In this document: positions 199-29,950 of the stretch, piece by piece
How the letters are laid out: each line of letters begins with the position of its first letter
How positions within the stretch are numbered: the first letter of the stretch is position 1
Assembly (NCBI RefSeq): GCF_004343035.1
Contig: NZ_SMCQ01000031.1
Location: forward strand, 1 to 33,252
Origin: Longibaculum muris
GTDB lineage: Bacteria; Bacillota_I; Bacilli_A; Erysipelotrichales; Coprobacillaceae
Length of the DNA: 33,252 bases
Direction: 5' to 3'
Program-made: the position numbers and the translations under genes
The notes under the pieces: generated by a model
Told to the model about the DNA's origin: nothing
The model's input: only the letters and a program-made list of their open reading frames with translations
Databases searched by the model: none

Positions 199-690
199 AT
201 GAAAAAATTGAATCAAAAGTCTTTAGATTTTATAGATGATACTATCTATAAGCATAAAGATGAAAAGGGTCCAACAAAACTTATTTTACATGAGATTCAA
301 AGAGAATTAGGGTATATTCCTTTTGAAGCAATGGAAAGAATGAGTGAAGTATTACAAATCCCTATTTCCAAAATTTATGGTGTTGTGACATTTTATTCGC
401 AATTTACAACTGAACCTAAAGGAAAACATGTTATTAGTGTTTGTTTAGGAACAGCTTGTTATGTTAATGGTTCACAAACAATTTTGGATTTGTTAGTTGA
501 AATGACAGGAGCTCCAGTCAATGGAACAAGTGCTGATGGTATCTTTTCAATAGATGCAACACGTTGTGTGGGCGCATGTGGATTGGCACCTGTTGTAAGT
601 GTGGATGGAACCGTTTTTGGATGTACGAAACAGTTGGAAGATTTGAAGATGCTGGTATTGAATTATAAAAAAGAGGAAGCACCTGCATGA
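199..690 (+). CDS. hndA: NADP-reducing/bifurcating hydrogenase subunit A (NuoE-like, [2Fe-2S])
   Basis: A 163-residue thioredoxin-like [2Fe-2S] protein of the NuoE/HndA/HydC family. The four cluster ligands are visible as C82 and C87 (CLGTACY) and C123 and C127 (CVGAC), in the spacing normal for the family. It probably relays electrons between the flavin subunit HndC and the catalytic subunit HndD in a soluble NAD(P)-linked [FeFe]-hydrogenase. It is the first gene of a ten-gene operon, has a good Shine-Dalgarno (GAGGTGA) and overlaps the next gene by 4 bp (ATGA). The catalytic partners lie over 3.5 kb downstream, separated from it by accessory genes. The family is certain; which electron carriers are used cannot be read from the sequence. 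Confidence 0.93.
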   Translation: MKKLNQKSLDFIDDTIYKHKDEKGPTKLILHEIQRELGYIPFEAMERMSEVLQIPISKIYGVVTFYSQFTTEPKGKHVISVCLGTACYVNGSQTILDLLVEMTGAPVNGTSADGIFSIDATRCVGACGLAPVVSVDGTVFGCTKQLEDLKMLVLNYKKEEAPA

Positions 691-1040
691 AACTTCAAGA
701 AATTTTAGATATTGTTGATGGTCGAGAACTTTATATTGATAGCCCTCATGTTTATGAAATTGATTTCCAAGATGCTTTTGGAACTGATTTGATGTCTGAT
801 GCCCTATGTCATTTAAGAGATGCTGATGAGACAGAATTATTGATTACTGGTTTAGCGAATATGCAAATCTTTCATACTGCTAATACTTTAGATTTAGCAG
901 CTATCCTAATTGTAAGAGGAAAAACAATTGATGAGCATATGATTCAAGGTGCAAAGATGAGTAATGTGAGTGTCTTTGTAACAAATTATACAATGTATGA
1001 GACATGTGGTCGTTTATATGAAAAAGGTTTAGGCAAATGA
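687..1040 (+). CDS. DRTGG domain protein 1
   Basis: A 117-residue soluble protein that resembles a stand-alone DRTGG domain, the small alpha/beta domain also found between CBS and phosphotransacetylase domains. The characteristic segment is degenerate (FGTDLMSDAL around residues 31-40) and is followed by an alternating strand/helix pattern. No catalytic residues can be assigned. It overlaps hndA and the following ATPase gene by 4 bp each, so it is probably translationally coupled. Such proteins recur in clostridial hydrogenase operons, where their role is unknown to me; ligand sensing is a guess. A second, divergent copy lies at 2613-2960. Confidence 0.75.
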   Translation: MKLQEILDIVDGRELYIDSPHVYEIDFQDAFGTDLMSDALCHLRDADETELLITGLANMQIFHTANTLDLAAILIVRGKTIDEHMIQGAKMSNVSVFVTNYTMYETCGRLYEKGLGK

Positions 1041-1444
1041 GAAAGACATATCAAATAGAAAAAGATAATTATGAAGATGCTGGACAAGCTTCACGTGATA
1101 TAAAAATGACATTAAAGACTTTGGGATTAGATCCAAAGGTCTTAAAAAGAGTTTCAATCGCATGTTATGAAGCGGAAATTAATCTGGTTATTCATTCAGA
1201 TGGTGGAGTAATTACATTTGAAATCGATGATGAGGGTGTTGTCCATTTGAGTTTTGATGATGTCGGACCAGGTATTCCAGATATTGAACTAGCGATGACA
1301 CCGGGTTATTCAACAGCTTCTAAAAAAGCGAGAGAATTTGGTTTTGGTGCAGGAATGGGACTTGATAATATGAAAAATTGTGCTTCAACATTTGATATTC
1401 AATCTTCAAAAGAAGGCACACATTTAAAAATGAGTTTTGTATGA
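1037..1444 (+). CDS. GHKL ATPase, anti-sigma-factor (RsbW/SpoIIAB)-like
   Basis: A 135-residue single-domain ATPase of the histidine kinase/anti-sigma type. The N box is ACYEAEINLVIHS (about residues 43-55), the G1 box DDVGPGIPD (75-83) and the G2 box GFGAGMGLDNMK (101-112). The length equals that of SpoIIAB and RsbW. It could therefore be a serine kinase or a switch protein, but no STAS-domain antagonist or dedicated sigma factor is encoded nearby. It overlaps both neighbours by 4 bp within the hydrogenase operon. The ATP-binding fold is well supported; the target is unknown. Confidence 0.82.
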   Translation: MRKTYQIEKDNYEDAGQASRDIKMTLKTLGLDPKVLKRVSIACYEAEINLVIHSDGGVITFEIDDEGVVHLSFDDVGPGIPDIELAMTPGYSTASKKAREFGFGAGMGLDNMKNCASTFDIQSSKEGTHLKMSFV

Positions 1445-2616
1445 AACCAGTGATTAGTTATTTAGATACAAAGTGTACTCATTGTATTAAATGTTTAAAA
1501 TCATGTCCTATGGATGCTATTTCAATTGTTAATCACCAAGTGAATATTGACGAAAGCAAATGTATTCATTGTGATGTTTGTATTCAAAACTGCCCATCTC
1601 GTGTTTTAAAAGTTCAAAGTGCTCATATGAATGAGACGATGAAGAATCATCAATATAATATTGCGTTAATTCCAACCAGTTTATTATCTGATATGAAATC
1701 TTATGAAGATTTTCAAAGAATCTGTCAAGCTATCTTAGAGTTAGGTTTTGATGAAATTGAACAATATAGTGACATTGAAGGTTATTTATATAATAAAGCT
1801 ATTGAGGAAAGTCATCAAAAACCTGGTTTATGGTTGACTTCATTTTGTCCAACCATCAATCAATTGATTGAAAAAAATTATCCAACATTATATGATCGTA
1901 TTTTACCTTATGATTATCCTGTAGAAATTGCAGCAAGAAGAATTAGAAAAAAACATCAAGGTCAAGATGTTGGAATTTATTCTTTATGTGAATGTGTAGG
2001 AAAAATGATGCTAGCTAAAGAACCTTTTGGAAATATGGAATCTGCTATTGATTATGCAATGACAATTTCCCATGTCTTTCCTAAAATTAATAAATTAAAA
2101 AGTAATCAAAAATATCCAATTGAAATGAATAGAGAAGGCGTTAAAAGTAATGTTGAAGATTTATTTGGAAATAGGAGTATGTCTATTGTTAGAGTTGAAG
2201 GGTTAAATCAAAGTCGAAGTTTATTAGATTTAATTGAATTTGATCAAATTCAACACATTGATTTAGTTGCGATGTTTGCTTGTTATCAAGGATGTATTGG
2301 TGGCTATTATTTATGGTCAAATCCTTTTGAAGGCAGTTACAATATTGAAAGTATGATGGAACAATATACATTAAGTGATCTTAAGTTAAATGATGAGGAA
2401 TATCGTATTCATCGTCAATTAGATCATCAAGAAATGTTATCAATGAAAGAACGAATGGCTTGGTTTGCTAAAGTTAATGATATTTTAGAATTATTACCTC
2501 AATATGATTGTGGGGCATGTGGTTTTGCTAATTGTCGTAGCCTAGCTCAAAGTATTGTTGATCATAAAGTTGATATTCAAGTTTGTCGAGTTAGAAAAAA
2601 AGGTGATGAGAAATGA
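1441..2616 (+). CDS. Iron-sulfur protein with degenerate [FeFe]-hydrogenase domain
   Basis: A 391-residue protein with three visible parts. An N-terminal 2[4Fe-4S] ferredoxin has C12/C15/C18/C22 and C41/C44/C47/C51. The middle resembles the hydrogenase large-subunit domain, but the H-cluster motifs are altered: SFCP around C136, SLCECVGK with C183/C185, and FACYQGCIGG with C281/C285. The C-terminal four-cysteine cluster domain has C357/C360/C365/C382. The H-cluster motifs TSCxPxW, MPCxxK and ExMxCxxGCxxG are kept only in outline. The likeliest role is as a redox or H2-sensing relative (HydS/HfsB-like) or a redox relay rather than the main hydrogenase, which is HndD at 6364-8112. It overlaps its neighbours by 4 bp on both sides. 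Confidence 0.82.
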   Translation: MKPVISYLDTKCTHCIKCLKSCPMDAISIVNHQVNIDESKCIHCDVCIQNCPSRVLKVQSAHMNETMKNHQYNIALIPTSLLSDMKSYEDFQRICQAILELGFDEIEQYSDIEGYLYNKAIEESHQKPGLWLTSFCPTINQLIEKNYPTLYDRILPYDYPVEIAARRIRKKHQGQDVGIYSLCECVGKMMLAKEPFGNMESAIDYAMTISHVFPKINKLKSNQKYPIEMNREGVKSNVEDLFGNRSMSIVRVEGLNQSRSLLDLIEFDQIQHIDLVAMFACYQGCIGGYYLWSNPFEGSYNIESMMEQYTLSDLKLNDEEYRIHRQLDHQEMLSMKERMAWFAKVNDILELLPQYDCGACGFANCRSLAQSIVDHKVDIQVCRVRKKGDEK

Positions 2617-2960
2617 ATTTAGATGAAAGTAAAAACTTAAAAGAAATTGTTTCTAAGGTTGATTTAACACTTATTAATGAACAATCACTTGATCGAGAAG
2701 TCCAAGGTATGTATGTTGGTGATTTATTAAGTATGGTTCTTGGTAAAGCGGATGAACAATTCTTATGGATAACTGTTCAAACTCATGTGAATGCTATTGC
2801 AGTTGCCCAGATGTTAGATTTTTCAGGAATTATTTTTGTTGAAGGACTTATGCCTGATGATGAAGCAATTTCAAAAGTAAATGAATTAGATTTACCTTTA
2901 TTTTCAACTAAGGATGATGCTTATACTCTGATTCGAAAATTAACTGCAGCAGGTATATAA
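2613..2960 (+). CDS. DRTGG-like domain protein 2
   Basis: A 115-residue soluble protein with the same overall layout as the protein at 687-1040: a degenerate motif LDREVQGMYVGDLLSMVL (about residues 26-43), then IDE-rich strands and a VEG turn near residue 78. Sequence identity between the two copies looks low, so they are old or functionally split paralogues. It overlaps the preceding gene by 4 bp and is followed after 2 bp by the PHP gene. No enzymatic motif is seen. Pairing with its paralogue or with the ATPases of the operon is plausible but unproven. Confidence 0.68.
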   Translation: MNLDESKNLKEIVSKVDLTLINEQSLDREVQGMYVGDLLSMVLGKADEQFLWITVQTHVNAIAVAQMLDFSGIIFVEGLMPDDEAISKVNELDLPLFSTKDDAYTLIRKLTAAGI

Positions 2961-2962
2961 GA

Positions 2963-3658
2963 ATGTTTTATGATTTGCATATTCATTCGGCATTATCGCC
3001 TTGTAGCGATGATGATATGACACTTAATAATATTGTCAATATGGCTTGTTTAAAAGAATTAGACTTGATTGCCATTACTGATCATAATTCAGTCAAACAA
3101 CTTTATCATTTAGCTGATGTGGCTCAGGATAAGATTCGTTTTATTTATGGTGTTGAAATTCAAAGTCGTGAAGAAATTCATGTGTTAGCTTATTTTTTAG
3201 ATAAACAATTATTGGATACTTTTCAAGCGTTTCTTGATTGTTATTTAATTGAAGAACCTAATGATGAATATTATTTTGGTCATCAATATATATTTAATGA
3301 AGTAGATGAAGTCGTGAATGAAGAAAGAAGGTTATTGATTAAATCATTGGATTTATCATTAGTTGAGATTATTGATTGGATTCATCATCATCACGGAATT
3401 GCTATTTTGGCTCATGCTATGAGTGAACGATTTTCAATCATGAATGTTTTTATGAGAATTGATGAAGATTTAGATATTGATGGAATAGAAGTGACAAAAG
3501 AGGATCATCGAACTTTATTGATGGAAAGATTTCCTTATTTAAAAAATCAATTTTGGTTAATGAATAGTGATGCCCATCGTTTAGAAATGATTAGTGAACC
3601 TATTCATCAATTTGATGAAAAAGAATTTTTTGGTTTATGGAGGAAGCGCTATGGATGA
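2963..3658 (+). CDS. PHP domain metal-dependent phosphoesterase
   Basis: A 231-residue PHP-family protein. The metal-binding residues are in place: HIH motif H6 and H8, the ITDHNS motif with D40 and H41, E65, H73, H151 in ILAHAM, and D203/H205 in NSDAH. It is therefore likely to hydrolyse a phosphoester, as trinuclear-metal relatives do on nucleotides or histidinol phosphate. The substrate cannot be deduced. Its position between a DRTGG protein and a GHKL ATPase inside a hydrogenase operon argues for a signalling or repair role rather than histidine synthesis. The upstream Shine-Dalgarno is weak (AGGT at 2951-2954), in line with coupling to the gene before it. Confidence 0.87.
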   Translation: MFYDLHIHSALSPCSDDDMTLNNIVNMACLKELDLIAITDHNSVKQLYHLADVAQDKIRFIYGVEIQSREEIHVLAYFLDKQLLDTFQAFLDCYLIEEPNDEYYFGHQYIFNEVDEVVNEERRLLIKSLDLSLVEIIDWIHHHHGIAILAHAMSERFSIMNVFMRIDEDLDIDGIEVTKEDHRTLLMERFPYLKNQFWLMNSDAHRLEMISEPIHQFDEKEFFGLWRKRYG

Positions 3659-4184
3659 GTTAGCATTGAACATTTTAGATATAGCTTATAATTCTATTCG
3701 GGCAAAGGCAACGCTCATTCAAATTCGTATTGAAGATAGTGTGAATCAAAATCATATTCTTATAGATATCATAGATAATGGTTGTGGAATGGATAAAGAA
3801 ACCATAGAAAAAGTAACTGATCCTTTTTATACAACCAGAACAACTCGCAAAGTTGGTTTAGGCATTCCACTTTTTAAACAAAATGCTGAATTAACTGGTG
3901 GTTATCTAAAAATGAATTCAAAACTTCATCAAGGAACTCATGTTAGTGCGATGTTTGTCAAAAATCATATTGATACGCCTGTAATGGGTAATATCATTGA
4001 TACAATAATAACCTTAATTCAAGCGAATGATCAAATTGATTATGAGTTTGTATATATAACAGATGAATTTTCTTTTGAAATGAAAACAAAGGAAATGAAA
4101 GAGATTCTAGGTGATGTAAAGATTACTGAACCTGAAGTCCTTTTATGGATTAAAGATTATATGAAGGAGGGATTAAGAAAATGA
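3651..4184 (+). CDS. GHKL histidine-kinase-like ATPase
   Basis: A 177-residue ATP-binding protein starting MDELALNILDIAYNSI. GGAGG at 3639-3643 lies 7 nt before this ATG; an in-frame upstream ATG at 3594 has no such site. The N box is in the first 20 residues, the G1 box is IDNGCGMD (about 41-48), followed by a DPFYTTRTTRKVGLGIPLFKQ lid and G2 region (about 55-75). There is no sensor, dimerisation or phosphoacceptor-His domain, so it is not a complete histidine kinase. It overlaps the PHP gene by 8 bp and hndB by 4 bp. Relatives occur in clostridial hydrogenase operons; the function is unassigned. Confidence 0.82.
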   Translation: MDELALNILDIAYNSIRAKATLIQIRIEDSVNQNHILIDIIDNGCGMDKETIEKVTDPFYTTRTTRKVGLGIPLFKQNAELTGGYLKMNSKLHQGTHVSAMFVKNHIDTPVMGNIIDTIITLIQANDQIDYEFVYITDEFSFEMKTKEMKEILGDVKITEPEVLLWIKDYMKEGLRK

Positions 4185-4549
4185 AATCACTAGAGGATTT
4201 AAAAAAGATTAGAGAGGCTGCACAAAATAAAATGACAATGCGTATGGAAGATGATACAAAATACCGTGTTGTTGTAGGTATGGCAACATGTGGAATTGCA
4301 GCAGGAGCACGTCCTGTCTTAAATACAATTGTTGAAGAAGTTGCTAAAGCAAAATTACCAGTTACAGTTTTACAAACAGGTTGTATTGGAATGTGTACAC
4401 TTGAGCCTATTGTTGAAGTCTATGATAAAGATGATCATAAAACAACATATGTTTTAATTGATGCCAAAAAAGCAAAAGAAATTGTTTTGCGTCATTTGAT
4501 GAATGATGAAGTTGTTGATGAATATACAGTTGGTAAATATAAGAAGTAG
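4181..4549 (+). CDS. hndB: NADP-reducing hydrogenase subunit B (2Fe-2S thioredoxin-like)
   Basis: A 122-residue member of the HndB family of [2Fe-2S] thioredoxin-like subunits. Key features are MATCGIAAGA (C37) and TGCIGMC (C68, C72), a reduced set compared with NuoE. In HndABCD-type enzymes this subunit carries electrons between the flavin and hydrogenase subunits. The ribosome binding site AAGGAGGG just upstream is strong, suggesting that from here on the structural subunits are made at higher level. It overlaps the ATPase gene by 4 bp and is followed 11 bp later by hndC. Confidence 0.87.
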   Translation: MKSLEDLKKIREAAQNKMTMRMEDDTKYRVVVGMATCGIAAGARPVLNTIVEEVAKAKLPVTVLQTGCIGMCTLEPIVEVYDKDDHKTTYVLIDAKKAKEIVLRHLMNDEVVDEYTVGKYKK

Positions 4550-4560
4550 GAGGGATGGAC

Positions 4561-6354
4561 ATGGAGAGAATACAAGTATTGGTCTGTGCTGGTACGGGCT
4601 GTAGTATTGGAAATTCTGGTGATTTGATAGAAGCTTTTAAAAGTGAAATCAAATCTATGGGATTGGAAAAAGAAGTAAGTGTTTTACGTACTGGATGTTT
4701 AGGACTTTGTGGGGTTGGACCAAATGTGTCTATTTATCCTGATAATATTATTTATAAATCAGTAAAAGTTGAGGATGTTAAAGAAATAGTGATGGAACAT
4801 TTCTATAAAGGACGTCCTGTTCAACGATTGATGCTTAATGAATCTGATCAAGAAACAAATGAAATTCATGATATTAACAAAACAAAATTCTATTCTAAAC
4901 AAAAACGTATTGCATTGCATAATTGTGGTGTGATTGATCCGGAAAATATTCAAGAATATATTGCTAAGGATGGTTATTTTGCTTTAGGTAAGGTTTTAAC
5001 AGAAATGACGCCTCAACAAGTTGTTGATGAAATCAAAGAGAGTGGCTTGAGAGGCCGTGGTGGTGGAGGTTTCCCTACTGGATTGAAATGGCAATTTGCC
5101 TTAAATGAACCAGGACCAGAAAAGTATGTTATTTGTAATGCTGATGAAGGTGATCCTGGGGCATTTATGGATCGTTCAATTTTGGAAGGAAATCCACATA
5201 GTGTTATTGAAGCGATGGCGATTGCAGCTTATGCGATTGGGGCTCATTATGGCTATATTTATATTCGTGCTGAATATCCAATTGCTGTAGAACGATTGAA
5301 ACATGCTATTAATGAAGCAAAAGAATTAGGTTTATTAGGTGAGAATATTTTTGGTACAGGATTTAATTTTGATTTGGAAATTCGTTTAGGGGCTGGGGCT
5401 TTCGTTTGTGGTGAAGAAACGGCTTTGATTCAATCTATTGAAGGAGAAAGAGGAATGCCTCGTCCAAAACCACCATTCCCAGCTCATAGTGGTGTTTGGG
5501 GAAAACCAACAATTATTAATAATGTTGAGACTTATGCCAATGTAGCACAAATTATTATTAATGGTGCAAAATGGTTTAAATCAATTGGAACGGAATCATC
5601 ATCAGGAACAAAGGTCTTTGCTTTAGGTGGTAAGATTACTAATACTGGACTTGTTGAAGTTCCAATGGGAACAACATTACGTGAAGTTATTTATGAAATT
5701 GGTGGAGGATGTCCAAACCGTAAACAATTTAAGGCTGTCCAAACTGGAGGGCCATCAGGTGGATGTTTAACAGAAAAACAACTAGATACACCAATTGGTT
5801 TTGATGAATTGATTAAGCTTGGCTCAATGATGGGTTCAGGTGGAATGATTGTCTTAGATGAAGATAACTGTATGGTTGATGTGGCTAGGTTCTATATGGA
5901 TTTTATTGTTGATGAATCATGTGGTAAATGTTCACCTTGTCGTATTGGAACAAAACGTATGCTTGAAATATTGGAAGATATTTGTGATGGCAAGGGAACA
6001 ATGGAATCACTTGAAGAACTTGAAACATTAGCTCATACCATTAAAGATACAGCTTTGTGTGGATTAGGACAATCAGCACCAAATCCAGTTTTATCAACAA
6101 TTTCACAATTTAGAGATGAATATATTGCTCATATTGTTGATAAAAAATGTCCAGCAGGAGTTTGTAAAGCATTATTATCATATGAAATTGATGCTGATAA
6201 ATGTCGTAAGTGTGGACTTTGTGCAAGACAATGTCCAGCAAATGCTATTGATGGTGAACTTGGTAAGGTAGCTTATCATATTGATCAGGATAAATGTATT
6301 AAATGTGGTAACTGTCTCAAAGCTTGTCACTTTAATGTGATTTCTAGAAAGTAG
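4561..6354 (+). CDS. hndC: Hydrogenase flavin/NAD(P)-binding subunit (NuoF-like)
   Basis: The flavin subunit, 597 residues from the ATG at 4561, which sits 7 nt after AGGAGG; the in-frame ATG at 4555 abuts that site and is less likely. Domain order: N-terminal [2Fe-2S] thioredoxin-like domain (C9, C14, C46, C50); NuoF FMN/NAD(P) core with GRGGGGFPTG (165-174), CNADEGDPG (192-200) and GAGAFVCGEE (277-286); SLBB region; NuoF [4Fe-4S] site C454/C457/C460 and C500; C-terminal 2[4Fe-4S] ferredoxin C548/C551/C554/C558 and C579/C582/C585/C589. This matches HndC/HydB, where NAD(P)H, ferredoxin and hydrogenase electrons meet, so confurcation or bifurcation is the likely chemistry. Confidence 0.94.
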   Translation: MERIQVLVCAGTGCSIGNSGDLIEAFKSEIKSMGLEKEVSVLRTGCLGLCGVGPNVSIYPDNIIYKSVKVEDVKEIVMEHFYKGRPVQRLMLNESDQETNEIHDINKTKFYSKQKRIALHNCGVIDPENIQEYIAKDGYFALGKVLTEMTPQQVVDEIKESGLRGRGGGGFPTGLKWQFALNEPGPEKYVICNADEGDPGAFMDRSILEGNPHSVIEAMAIAAYAIGAHYGYIYIRAEYPIAVERLKHAINEAKELGLLGENIFGTGFNFDLEIRLGAGAFVCGEETALIQSIEGERGMPRPKPPFPAHSGVWGKPTIINNVETYANVAQIIINGAKWFKSIGTESSSGTKVFALGGKITNTGLVEVPMGTTLREVIYEIGGGCPNRKQFKAVQTGGPSGGCLTEKQLDTPIGFDELIKLGSMMGSGGMIVLDEDNCMVDVARFYMDFIVDESCGKCSPCRIGTKRMLEILEDICDGKGTMESLEELETLAHTIKDTALCGLGQSAPNPVLSTISQFRDEYIAHIVDKKCPAGVCKALLSYEIDADKCRKCGLCARQCPANAIDGELGKVAYHIDQDKCIKCGNCLKACHFNVISRK

Positions 6355-6363
6355 GTGGATGAA

Positions 6364-8112
6364 ATGGGAAAAATAAAATTAACAATTAACAATCGCCAAG
6401 TTGAAGCATATGAAGGAAAAACAATCTTAGAAGTGGCAAGAGAAAATGGTATTCATATTCCTACTTTATGTTATTTAAAGGATTATACAGGAACAGGGGC
6501 TTGTCGTGTTTGTCAAGTCGAAGTAGAAGGAGCAAGAAACCTTTGTGCTGCTTGTGTATATCCTGTAAGAGAAGGAATGGTTGTCAAAACAAATTCTATG
6601 CGTGCTTTGGATGCGCGTAGACGTGTTGTCGAATTAATTGTTTCTAATCACTCTAAGGATTGTTTATCTTGTATTCGTAATACAAACTGCGAATTACAAA
6701 GACTATGTCAAGAATTAGGGGTAAGAGAAGATGCGTTTAAAGGGCAAAAAACAGTACCTACATTTGATGAAGTATCACCAGGTGTAGTAAGAGACACTTC
6801 GAAATGTATTTTATGTGGGCGATGTGTAGCAGCTTGTCAAAAACATCAAGGATTAGGTGTTTTAGATTTTATGGAACGTGGTTTTAAAACTAAAATTGGT
6901 CCAGTCTTTGATCGTAGTTTTAATGATGTTAATTGTATGCAATGTGGTCAATGTATCAATGTTTGTCCAGTTGGAGCGTTACATGAAAAAGAAGAAATTC
7001 ATAATGTTATTGCGGCTTTAAATGATCCAAATATGCATGTTGTTGTACAAACTGCACCAGCAGTTAGAGCAAGTTTAGGTGAAGAATTTGGAATGCCAAT
7101 TGGAACGCGTGTGACTGGGAAAATGGTTGCAGCTTTAAAACTTTTAGGTTTTGATAAAGTTTATGATACAAACTTTGGGGCTGATTTAACAATTATGGAA
7201 GAAGGCTATGAATTTATACATCGTGTTCAAGAAGGTGGCGTTTTACCAATGATTACATCTTGTTCACCAGGATGGATTAATTATTGTGAAAAAGAATATC
7301 CAGATCTATTAGATCATCTTTCAACATGTAAATCACCTCATATGATGTTAGGAGCAATGATTAAATCACATTATGCCAAAACATATCAGTTAGATCCAAA
7401 GAATATCTATGTTGTCTCTATTATGCCTTGTGTTGCTAAAAAAGGTGAAAAAGAAAGACCACAAATGATCAAAGATGAAATGAAAGATGTTGATGCAGTT
7501 TTAACAACAAGAGAATTAGGTAAACTGATTAAAATGTTTGGAGTTAACTTCGTTGATTTAAAAGATGAAGAATTTGATCAGGATATGTTTGGTGAATATA
7601 CTGGTGCTGCTGTTATCTTTGGGGCAAGTGGTGGTGTCATGGAAGCCGCTTTACGTACAGTTGTTGATGTTTTAACTTCACAAGATTTAGATAATATTGA
7701 ATATCATGCAGTAAGAGGACAACGTGGGTTAAAAGAAGCAAGTTTAAAAGTTGGTGATTTAACAGTCAATGTTGCTGTGGCACATAGTATGCAGATTGCT
7801 AAACCATTATTAGATGATATTCGTGCTGGAAAATCAAAATATCATTTCATTGAAATTATGGGATGTCCAGGTGGATGTATTAATGGTGGAGGACAATCTT
7901 ATGTCAATGCAATGATTCGTAATAGTGGTTTTGATTTTAAAGGTGCTCGAGCAAAAGCCTTATATGATGAAGATCGTGCAATGCCAGCCAGAAAATCTCA
8001 TAAGAATACCCAAATTCAAAAGCTTTATGAAGATTTCTTGGGACATCCAAACTCTCATTTGGCACATAGTTTGTTGCATACAACTTATGAGAAAAAAGAT
8101 AAATATAAATAA
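6364..8112 (+). CDS. hndD: [FeFe]-hydrogenase catalytic subunit
   Basis: The catalytic subunit, 582 residues from the ATG at 6364, 5 nt after AGGTGG; an in-frame GTG at 6355 lies inside that site. Modules in order: plant-type [2Fe-2S] domain (C36, C47, C50, C64); His-ligated [4Fe-4S] domain (H96, C100, C103, C109); 2[4Fe-4S] ferredoxin (C148/C151/C154/C158 and C191/C194/C197/C201); H-cluster domain with TSCSPGW (298-304), MPCVAKK (353-359) and GCPGGCINGGG (500-510, C501 and C505). It makes or oxidises H2 in the cytoplasm. It is complete and closes the operon; a strong terminator follows. The clostridial enzyme CpI has TSCCPGW at the first motif, so Ser301 is a variant residue. Confidence 0.96.
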   Translation: MGKIKLTINNRQVEAYEGKTILEVARENGIHIPTLCYLKDYTGTGACRVCQVEVEGARNLCAACVYPVREGMVVKTNSMRALDARRRVVELIVSNHSKDCLSCIRNTNCELQRLCQELGVREDAFKGQKTVPTFDEVSPGVVRDTSKCILCGRCVAACQKHQGLGVLDFMERGFKTKIGPVFDRSFNDVNCMQCGQCINVCPVGALHEKEEIHNVIAALNDPNMHVVVQTAPAVRASLGEEFGMPIGTRVTGKMVAALKLLGFDKVYDTNFGADLTIMEEGYEFIHRVQEGGVLPMITSCSPGWINYCEKEYPDLLDHLSTCKSPHMMLGAMIKSHYAKTYQLDPKNIYVVSIMPCVAKKGEKERPQMIKDEMKDVDAVLTTRELGKLIKMFGVNFVDLKDEEFDQDMFGEYTGAAVIFGASGGVMEAALRTVVDVLTSQDLDNIEYHAVRGQRGLKEASLKVGDLTVNVAVAHSMQIAKPLLDDIRAGKSKYHFIEIMGCPGGCINGGGQSYVNAMIRNSGFDFKGARAKALYDEDRAMPARKSHKNTQIQKLYEDFLGHPNSHLAHSLLHTTYEKKDKYK

Positions 8113-26927: not shown

Positions 26928-28630
26928 TGAAAGAATTAAAATTAGAAGATTATCCAATTATTAAACCGTATTTAGATTTAGCAAATTATGAAGGTTATAA
27001 TTCCAATTTTGTAACAATGATGATGTGGAATCATGAGTATCATATTCAATATGAAATTCATGAGCATTTCTTAGTGATGTTACATAATTATAAAGGAATG
27101 AAATTTTGGGCTATGCCTTTTACAGCACCCGAATATTATAAAGAAGCGATTGATTATATGATTGATTACAGTCATCAAAATCAATTTCCATTTATGATAG
27201 ATTGTGCAATTGAATCATTTGTTGAAATAATTCAAAAAGATTATCATGAACAATTATTATTTGAAAGAACCCCTTATAACGATGATTACATTTATGATCG
27301 TCAAATGCTTCAAACTTTATCAGGAAAGAAAATGCAAAAAAGAAGAAATCATTATAATGCCTTTTTAAAAGAACATCCACATTATGTTTATCGTGATTTA
27401 GATTTGACTGAAGATTTTGAAACTATTTTACAATGTTTGAATAAGTGGGAAGCTGAAAAAGATGATTTGAGTGAATCGATGACAAGTGAAGTTCGTGGTA
27501 TTATGTCATTATTATCTTCAAAACATCTTTTGGATTTTGAAGTAGGAGGTATCTTTATTGATGAACAAATGGAGGCTTTTATAATTGCTTCACGCTTAAA
27601 GCATTCGACAATTCAAATTCATGTAGAAAAAGCAAATAAAGAAATTCGAGGACTTTATCCTGCAATTTTAAAAGAGTTATTAGAACATCATTTTCCTGAT
27701 GAAAAATATGTCAATAGAGAAGAAGATATGGGCTTAGAAAACTTGCGTAAATCTAAGCAATCTTTACATCCATTAAAAATGATTCATAAGTATTGTATTT
27801 ATGAAAAAAAGTTATGTGTGAGTCAAGCAAGTGATGATGATTTTAATGAAATTATTGATTTATGGAAAAAATCTTTTGTTGATGAAACTTTAGAAACAAC
27901 ACATTATTATTTTGATAATCTTTATCAAAAAGAAAATACTTTTGTTTTAAAGAATTATCAGGAGATTATTTCAGTTTTACAGATTCATTCAATGATGATT
28001 AAAAATCATCAAATCGAGGAAGAATGTTATTTTATATTAGGTGTTTGTACAAAAGCGGAGTATCAAGGACAAGGGTGTATGAAATATCTTTTAAATGATG
28101 TCTTAAAACGATATGAAGATAAAAAAATCTATTTACAAGCATATGTACCTGATATTTATCGTCCTTTTGGATTCAATGCATCTCATTTTCATCAAATTAT
28201 TACTGTAGATAAATCAAAACTTGGTTTTGAACCATTGATGCCCACTGATGATGAAAACCTTTTAAAAGCTTATTATGAAGCTTATACAAGCTCTTTAGAT
28301 GAGTATTGTATAAGAGATGAACAATATTGGAAACAATTGATTTATCGATGTCATATTTTTGATGATCAAATTCTTATTTTTGAAAATCATGGTTATCTTA
28401 TTTATCATGAAGATGAAAATGAAATCTATGTAAGTGAATGTGTTTATTTAAATAATGACGCCATTTTAAAAATGTTATCTTACTTTAAAAATTCAGCAAA
28501 AGTATTGAAGGTAGAAGGGGATATGAATATAGCTATAGACGGAGATAAAGAAAGAATTATAACCATGATGTCAAATCAAGTTCAAGAAGATATTGTGGAT
28601 AATCATAAATATATTAATGAAATTTACTAA
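26927..28630 (+). CDS. DUF2156-GNAT fusion acyltransferase
   Basis: A 567-residue protein starting at the ATG in TAATG; a longer in-frame start at 26852 lies inside the DUF815 gene. Residues 1-290 are a DUF2156 domain, the GNAT-like fold of aminoacyl-phosphatidylglycerol synthases (KKMQKRRNHYNAFLKEHP near 134-151). Residues 298-425 are a GNAT acetyltransferase with the acetyl-CoA loop AEYQGQGCMKYLL (377-389). The last 140 residues resemble a sterol-carrier-like tail but I cannot confirm this. It has no membrane helices, so it is not a full MprF. The likely activity is acyl or aminoacyl transfer to an unknown acceptor. Confidence 0.85.
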   Translation: MKELKLEDYPIIKPYLDLANYEGYNSNFVTMMMWNHEYHIQYEIHEHFLVMLHNYKGMKFWAMPFTAPEYYKEAIDYMIDYSHQNQFPFMIDCAIESFVEIIQKDYHEQLLFERTPYNDDYIYDRQMLQTLSGKKMQKRRNHYNAFLKEHPHYVYRDLDLTEDFETILQCLNKWEAEKDDLSESMTSEVRGIMSLLSSKHLLDFEVGGIFIDEQMEAFIIASRLKHSTIQIHVEKANKEIRGLYPAILKELLEHHFPDEKYVNREEDMGLENLRKSKQSLHPLKMIHKYCIYEKKLCVSQASDDDFNEIIDLWKKSFVDETLETTHYYFDNLYQKENTFVLKNYQEIISVLQIHSMMIKNHQIEEECYFILGVCTKAEYQGQGCMKYLLNDVLKRYEDKKIYLQAYVPDIYRPFGFNASHFHQIITVDKSKLGFEPLMPTDDENLLKAYYEAYTSSLDEYCIRDEQYWKQLIYRCHIFDDQILIFENHGYLIYHEDENEIYVSECVYLNNDAILKMLSYFKNSAKVLKVEGDMNIAIDGDKERIITMMSNQVQEDIVDNHKYINEIY

Positions 28631-28655
28631 AAATCAGAATTATTCTGATTTTTTT
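28629..28655 (+). terminator. Terminator after the DUF2156-GNAT gene
   Basis: A perfect 11-bp stem, AAAAATCAGAA/TTCTGATTTTT, loop TTA, with a T7 run. It overlaps the stop codon. Confidence 0.9.
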
Positions 28656-28656
28656 A

Positions 28657-28685
28657 TTTACTTATTAAATAAAATTTGATATGAT
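28657..28685 (+). promoter_or_regulatory. Promoter of the MFS leader transcript
   Basis: TTTACT (28657-28662), a 17-bp spacer and TATGAT (28680-28685) with TGA before the -10. The start of transcription would be near 28692, leaving a leader of about 107 nt before the transporter start codon. Confidence 0.75.
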
Positions 28686-28711
28686 AAAAAAAGTTAAAGG
28701 ATGTGTAAAGG

Positions 28712-28729
28712 ATGAACCTACCTATTTGA
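28712..28729 (+). CDS. Candidate leader peptide MNLPI
   Basis: A five-codon frame, ATG AAC CTA CCT ATT TGA. It is preceded by AAAGGATGTG (28696-28705), which matches the ideal AAAGGAGGTG at 9 of 10 bases, with 6-nt spacing. The whole frame lies in the 5' arm of the hairpin that pairs with the transporter's ribosome binding site. A ribosome stalled here would melt that hairpin, as in erm and cat attenuation. Existence as a translated peptide is inferred from this layout. Confidence 0.55.
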   Translation: MNLPI

Positions 28730-28796
28730 TACCCATTAAAAAATAAATAAATAAAGATATAAGTTCTATTTTTTATGTGTATAAATAGGGAGGTTT
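28714..28796 (+). promoter_or_regulatory. Translational attenuator hairpin sequestering the MFS Shine-Dalgarno
   Basis: 28714-28732 pairs with 28779-28796 in 17 base pairs, interrupted by one bulge (G28728) and one A-G mismatch. This buries GGGAGG (28788-28793). Above a C-T mismatch, 28734-28745 pairs with 28767-28777 in a further 11 AU-rich pairs with one bulge. The apical loop is about 21 nt. No GC-rich stem with a T-run is present, so control would be on translation rather than termination. Confidence 0.65.
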
Positions 28797-28798
28797 TT

Positions 28799-29950
28799 AT
28801 GTACTCAAAAAAGAATATTAGAATAATGTATGCAATGTCTCTTTTACAAGGCATGGTATTTTATGGACCTATAGCAACTTTGTATCGTCAAAGTGTAGGT
28901 GTAACAGTTTTTCAAATTACATTTATTGAAAGTGTTTCTTTAGCATTAGCTATTTTATTAGAAATCCCTTGGGGTGTTGTTGCAGATAAAATAGGGTATA
29001 AGAAATCAATGATTATTTGTTCTTTGCTTTATTTTATTAGTAAAATTGTTTTTTATGGAGCAAATGGTTTTACAGCTTTTTTAATTGAAAGGATTATATT
29101 AAGTGTTGTTATTGCAGGATTATCTGGTTTGGATTCAAGTATTTTATATTTATCAGCTCCACCACAGCAATCACAAAAAGTATTTTCTATCTATAATAAT
29201 TTAGGAACTACAGGGTTGATTTTTGCTGCAGGAGTTTATTCAATCTTTATTCGTGATCATTATCGTGAAGCAGCTTTTTTAACAATGATAAGTTATGCTA
29301 TTGCTTTTTTCTTATCTTTAGGTTTAGATGAAGTGAAAGATCAGGATGAATCAAATTCCTCTTTTTCATTAAATGATTTTCGTGATTGCTTTCAAGAGTT
29401 TTTGAAGCATAAGGCATTTCTTTTGTTTTTAATTGCAATTGCGTTATTTAATGAAACTCATCAAACAATAACAACTTTCTTAAATCAATTACAGTTTATT
29501 GCTGGAGGGTTAAACAACCAACAAATAGGATATATTTATATTGTTACAACGCTTTGTGGCTTGTTAGGTCTTTTCTCAACGTATTTGACAAATAAACTAG
29601 GGGAGAGACGGTTGATTGTTATTTTGTTAATAGCTATGTTCATAGCTTGTAGCGCACTCACAATAACTTATATTCCGATTATTTCAATTGTTGCAATTGT
29701 AGGAATGCGTATTTCATTTAGTTTATTACAGCCACTACAAATGAAAATTCAAAATCAACAAATCGAAACAACAAATCGTGCTACACTTTTAAGTTTAAAT
29801 GCTGTTATGATGGACAGTGTTGCTATTATTACAAATTTAATTTTTGGGAGATTGGCCGATTTTCATTTGTCATATGCAATGATGTTAGGGGTAATTTTTA
29901 GTTTTTTATCGATTATCTGTTATACTTTATGGCTTAGATATCAAAAATAA
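28799..29950 (+). CDS. MFS transporter, probable efflux pump
   Basis: A 383-residue major facilitator with about 12 membrane helices. Motif A between helices 2 and 3 reads GVVADKIGYKK (about 54-64), and a second copy-like GRLADF lies near residue 348. A central hydrophilic loop (DEVKDQDESNSS) separates the halves. The ATG at 28799 has GGGAGG 5 nt upstream; an in-frame ATG at 28775 precedes that site and is rejected. The substrate is unknown, but the attenuator-like leader is what one expects of a pump induced by a ribosome-targeting compound. A terminator follows. Confidence 0.87.
   Translation: MYSKKNIRIMYAMSLLQGMVFYGPIATLYRQSVGVTVFQITFIESVSLALAILLEIPWGVVADKIGYKKSMIICSLLYFISKIVFYGANGFTAFLIERIILSVVIAGLSGLDSSILYLSAPPQQSQKVFSIYNNLGTTGLIFAAGVYSIFIRDHYREAAFLTMISYAIAFFLSLGLDEVKDQDESNSSFSLNDFRDCFQEFLKHKAFLLFLIAIALFNETHQTITTFLNQLQFIAGGLNNQQIGYIYIVTTLCGLLGLFSTYLTNKLGERRLIVILLIAMFIACSALTITYIPIISIVAIVGMRISFSLLQPLQMKIQNQQIETTNRATLLSLNAVMMDSVAIITNLIFGRLADFHLSYAMMLGVIFSFLSIICYTLWLRYQK

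Follow-up and report, generated by a model that had tools for sequence, protein, structure and literature searches.

The window, by which we mean the whole 33,252-nucleotide stretch of Longibaculum muris DNA analysed here, contains an MFS transporter gene whose upstream region is likely to act as a translational attenuator that responds to stalled ribosomes. As far as sequences can tell, the arrangement is kept in relatives across gut and soil Bacillota while the letters themselves change. The locus has the following features:

28629..28653, + strand: intrinsic terminator-like hairpin closing the upstream gene (11-bp stem and U run; -8.7 kcal/mol, z -5.27, 0 of 200 shuffles as good)
28657..28685, + strand: putative promoter TTTACT-17-TATGAT with an extended -10 TG (9/12 match)
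28696..28705, + strand: Shine–Dalgarno (SD) of the leader, AAAGGATGTG (anti-SD duplex energy -8.9)
28712..28729, + strand: leader frame MNLPI-stop (ATG AAC CTA CCT ATT TGA); its clade keeps five codons ending in Ile
28714..28732, + strand: 5′ arm of the masking stem, 17 pairs with 28779-28796
28738..28774, + strand: A/U-rich stem extension and loop (11 bp, 28738-28748 with 28763-28774)
28779..28796, + strand: 3′ arm of the masking stem including the transporter SD (TAGGGAGGTT), from the fold and the SD opening cost
28799..29950, + strand: MFS transporter, 383 aa, DHA1-like (Pfam MFS_1, 4.9e-28)

In an unstressed cell, ribosomes would initiate on the leader, synthesise MNLPI and be released without delay. 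The vacated leader RNA would then pair with the SD of the transporter, and translation of the pump would be low. A ribosome held on the leader would cover the 5′ arm, so that the stem opens and the GGGAGG upstream of the transporter start (ATG 28799) becomes available. We infer that the cell responds to the stalling itself, that this would be caused by an inhibitor of initiating or very early ribosomes or of release, and that the pump would export the inducing compound or one related to it. Jammed ribosomes would thus probably turn the pump on, with an antibiotic as the most likely cause, and by analogy with known systems a ribosome-binding antibiotic is a plausible inducer.

Much of this anatomy was proposed in a first-pass annotation of the sequence. 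The leader and its own SD are indeed upstream of the transporter, with the ATG at 28712-28714 and the TGA stop at 28727-28729, and the annotated positions are correct to a base or two. Folding positions 28690-28810 reproduced the annotated 17-bp pairing exactly and recovered the 11-bp A/U-rich extension, together with 3 further pairs. Taken alone this fold is only moderately unusual (-24.2 kcal/mol, compared with -16.3 ± 3.0 for shuffles; z -2.66, 2 of 200 shuffles as good). Stronger support comes from shuffling the spacer between the leader and the SD. In silico, opening the transporter SD costs 11.4 kcal/mol in the free RNA and 1.1-1.4 kcal/mol once a ribosome sits on the leader, whichever codon it occupies, in agreement with the annotated release of GGGAGG, and this drop was matched by 0 of 100 shuffled spacers.

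That a ribosome on any codon of the window leader frees the SD is also what translational coupling without stalling would predict, whereby the stem would be opened often enough by routine translation of the leader to set a steady pump level, with no sensing of drugs. The anatomy would be identical, and the strong SDs of the leaders found across the homologues suit this explanation. However, a five-codon frame is occupied only briefly, known systems of such anatomy are stall sensors, and coupling gives no role to the length and the Ile-stop that are conserved in the clade of the window. We regard it as rather improbable.

The beginning of the unit is less sharply defined than the stem. The terminator-like hairpin after the preceding gene implies that the transporter is a separate unit. 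The annotated promoter, TTTACT-17-TATGAT, is present, although sites of this quality (9/12) are no commoner than in shuffles; the position of its -10 box is better supported, as a -10-like box occurs at a similar place before 19 of the 21 homologous leaders examined (9.3 expected). Two observations had been named beforehand as contrary to the attenuator, a transcription start downstream of 28732 and a joint loss of leader frame and pairing in close homologues; we found neither. Elsewhere in the window (199-8112) there is a run of genes whose translations resemble NuoE/NuoF-like and iron-only hydrogenase subunits, with anti-sigma-like and PHP-domain proteins.

Homologues of the transporter were sought in its own order, its own phylum, species-representative genomes and plasmids. 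We kept 37 including the window, the others being 28-52% identical to the window protein. The phylum-wide search yielded just one new locus (L055), as the Lachnospiraceae lay outside the part of the phylum that was sampled, and no relatives were found on viral contigs. No NCBIfam model reached its cut-off for the transporter, and the best scores lay far below the cut-offs of characterised drug-exporting MFS proteins; among solved structures it weakly matches NorA only.

In 29 of the 37 homologues, the 150 bases upstream contain an ATG frame that follows an SD and has no more than seven codons, against 4.1 expected from shuffled sequence. The other eight have no such frame. The leaders are MNLPI (the window), MSRPI, MYRPI, MNRPI, MYCPI (two) and MCLSI; MVLF[QLR]I (three), MLRI, MHAPRS, MYVPVH, MLHAPLH and MIRAPKH; MKNVD (two), MKKC (three), MAD, MNADVRS (two) and MHLQD; and five bare AUG-stop frames, of which that of L042 is doubtful. 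With one codon each of Leu, Pro and Ile in MNLPI, shortage of these amino acids had been suggested as an inducer, and slow decoding could in that case hold the ribosome and induce amino acid import or export. This is very unlikely, because leaders of one transporter family (e.g. MKKC, MAD, MKNVD, MHLQD, MNADVRS and MVLFRI) share no codon after the start and no amino acid but Met. Furthermore, the window leader has no run of codons for one amino acid, as an attenuator of the amino-acid biosynthesis type would; its codons are single and unconserved across lineages.

What the lineages do share is the pairing. For the 17 lineages with a leader of at least three codons, we calculated the duplex energy of each leader plus six bases with the transporter SD region of the same lineage and with those of the others. 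The native combinations sum to -212.6 kcal/mol, compared with -117.6 ± 10.9 when permuted, and 0 of 20,000 permutations were as good. Leader frame and SD masking are thus kept in 17 lineages despite complete sequence change, and this comparison supports the attenuator reading well. In silico, the mean cost of opening the transporter SD across these lineages falls from 8.5 kcal/mol without a ribosome to 2.3 kcal/mol with one on the last leader codon, and in 17/17 lineages the gain is larger than the average for shuffled spacers (combined z about 20). A ribosome on the start codon unmasks the SD in the lineage of the window, but has little or no effect in L054, L040, L033 and L043, so the common releasing position is the leader end. 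In L043 the SD is masked by a local hairpin that begins just past the leader stop.

Homologues had been proposed as a source of compensatory changes and as a check on the conservation of MNLPI. Among the 33 pairs of the L005-L007 stem, 30 are unchanged, 2 are compensatory, 1 is one-sided and 0 are broken. Such changes are uncountable in the window's own stem, because its closest homologue is only about 52% identical in the transporter protein. The sequence MNLPI varies, while its five codons and final Ile are kept in the clade.

An A/U-rich stem that masks an SD might also belong to an RNA thermometer or a ligand-binding riboswitch, with the leader frame being incidental. Nevertheless, a short SD-preceded frame accompanies the masking stem in every lineage, the loops are not conserved among lineages, and Rfam gave no match above gathering score for the window. 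We consider this extremely unlikely.

A different switch could be formed by a terminator nested in the stem, with masking of the SD as a secondary effect. Of 21 homologues, 8 have a terminator-like hairpin nested between the leader and the SD, where 0.8 are expected; vmlR and msrD have one as well. In contrast, the scan found none between leader and transporter in the window, nor in 12 other homologues, while SD masking is present in 17/17 lineages. Transcription attenuation is accordingly quite unlikely to be the main switch, and some lineages may add it to the masking. The homologues with nested terminators are L026, L027, L003, L005-L007, L031 and L041.

The peptide, too, seems to matter in the clade of the window, which is supported (97/87) in the transporter protein tree. 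The hairpin-bearing leaders of this clade, from six lineages, are all exactly five codons long, with Ile last and Pro (once Ser) fourth. The chance of Ile being last in 6/6 is about 1e-5, on a crude 15% Ile background and with lineages that are not fully independent. The Pro codons are CCT, CCC, CCG and CCA and the stops TGA or TAA; that all four Pro codons and both stops are used suggests that the peptide itself is under selection. Part of the Pro-Ile conservation may instead be due to pairing, of the CC in the Pro codon with the GG of the SD. The conserved Pro-Ile-stop suggests arrest at termination aided by the nascent peptide, and the peptide of these leaders is possibly a new minimal arrest peptide. 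Neither MNLPI nor the other leaders of the clade contain the known macrolide arrest motif (+X+). The annotated likeness to erm holds for the masking of the SD but not for an erm-type arrest motif in the window leader. Chloramphenicol and linezolid favour Ala, Ser or Thr for arrest, and the window leader has no Ala, Ser or Thr.

The class of mechanism is already known, and the leader family and transporter group were not found described in the open-licence literature. In the erm and cat attenuators a hairpin hides the SD of a resistance gene until a ribosome stalled on the leader opens it, as proposed for the window. Unlike the window, these have longer leaders, known arrest motifs and other target genes, and erm has several alternative hairpins. 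MFS drug pumps under ribosome-sensing leaders include fexA, cmlA and tet(L). A further MFS exporter under leader control is mefA, which uses transcription attenuation with a +X+ motif (PMC10314930). Control of an MFS exporter is shared between these four and the window, whereas the transporter groups and the leaders are different.

The closest precedents are toiL, vmlR and msrDL. In toiL-topAI of E. coli, a ribosome stalled at any point of the uORF exposes a ribosome-binding site (PMC12121999). There, too, one hairpin spans the small frame and the ribosome-binding site of the target, and a held ribosome opens it. The operon controlled by toiL encodes a toxin-antitoxin pair and is subject to Rho-dependent termination, whereas the window has an MFS pump and a five-codon leader; by analogy, the window appears to be the toiL arrangement at minimal size. 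The vmlR leader of B. subtilis has three codons, answers lincomycin via arrest at initiation and tolerates MIN, MDN and MDK (PMC9226507). It shares with the window an ultra-short and sequence-tolerant leader, an SD-masking hairpin and, if the pump is what we think, a resistance gene of the Bacillota. It differs in having an anti-antiterminator, a terminator, a NusG pause and an ABC-F target, and in that its uORF occupies a stem-loop of its own, distinct from the one masking the target SD; no intrinsic terminator of the vmlR type was found between leader and gene in the window. The streptococcal msrDL, MYLIFM, is a six-codon leader with arrest at the stop codon in the presence of erythromycin (PMC10314930). 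It resembles the window in its shortness and the proposed stop-codon arrest, and is hydrophobic like the MVLF[RQL]I of L005-L007; it differs in its transcription attenuation, its ABC-F target and the lack of a Pro-Ile end. Because of the precedents of vmlR (initiation arrest) and msrDL (stop-codon arrest), we favour a compound that blocks early translation or release as the most likely inducer.

These natural leaders are ultra-short (1 to 7 codons) and belong to one transporter group in which the pairing is kept and the peptide varies. They allow one to test how short and how unspecific a sensor of ribosome stalling can be. Furthermore, they point to an uncharacterised MFS group in gut bacteria that is likely to act as an inducible drug pump.

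The shortest frames are a separate case. AUG-UAA or AUG-UAG follows an SD in two clades (L004 and L030; L047 and L056), and the five AUG-stop frames, with L042 doubtful, exceed the chance number of 0.6. In these homologues, including the doubtful L042, they lie 40-80 bases before the transporter start. None of the five has a leader-SD hairpin, and in the two clades the transporter SD is not masked. We rejected them as the same pairing device, as 19,166 of 20,000 permutations were as good as the native combinations. It is conceivable, and we offer it tentatively, that the xxPI-stop leaders form a hitherto undescribed class of minimal arrest peptide, stopping the ribosome at termination when a specific small molecule is present, and that the AUG-stop leaders in sister clades sense in the same way but in a second form that needs no hairpin.

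The genome of the window has only one SD-preceded xxPI leader. When 311 genomes of the order were searched for an SD followed by MxRPI-stop, the matches beyond L003 and L029 were MKRPI in a repeated element or chance occurrences within genes; the leader is thus a mark of this transporter alone. The repeated element has a near-identical tail with GGAGCCATGATGAAAAGACCGATTTAA (MKRPI-stop) in several genomes of one genus (L059-L061, L063, L064 and L067) and is unlinked to the transporter. A leader of another kind, of about 35 codons and ending in NKGRVRPK-stop, precedes a different MFS gene in the same genome as the window (L002, G000:C12 near 40048) and also in L012 and L014. It carries an RVR (+X+) motif and terminator-like hairpins, its MFS gene is 24% identical to that of the window, and by appearance it looks like a macrolide-type attenuator.
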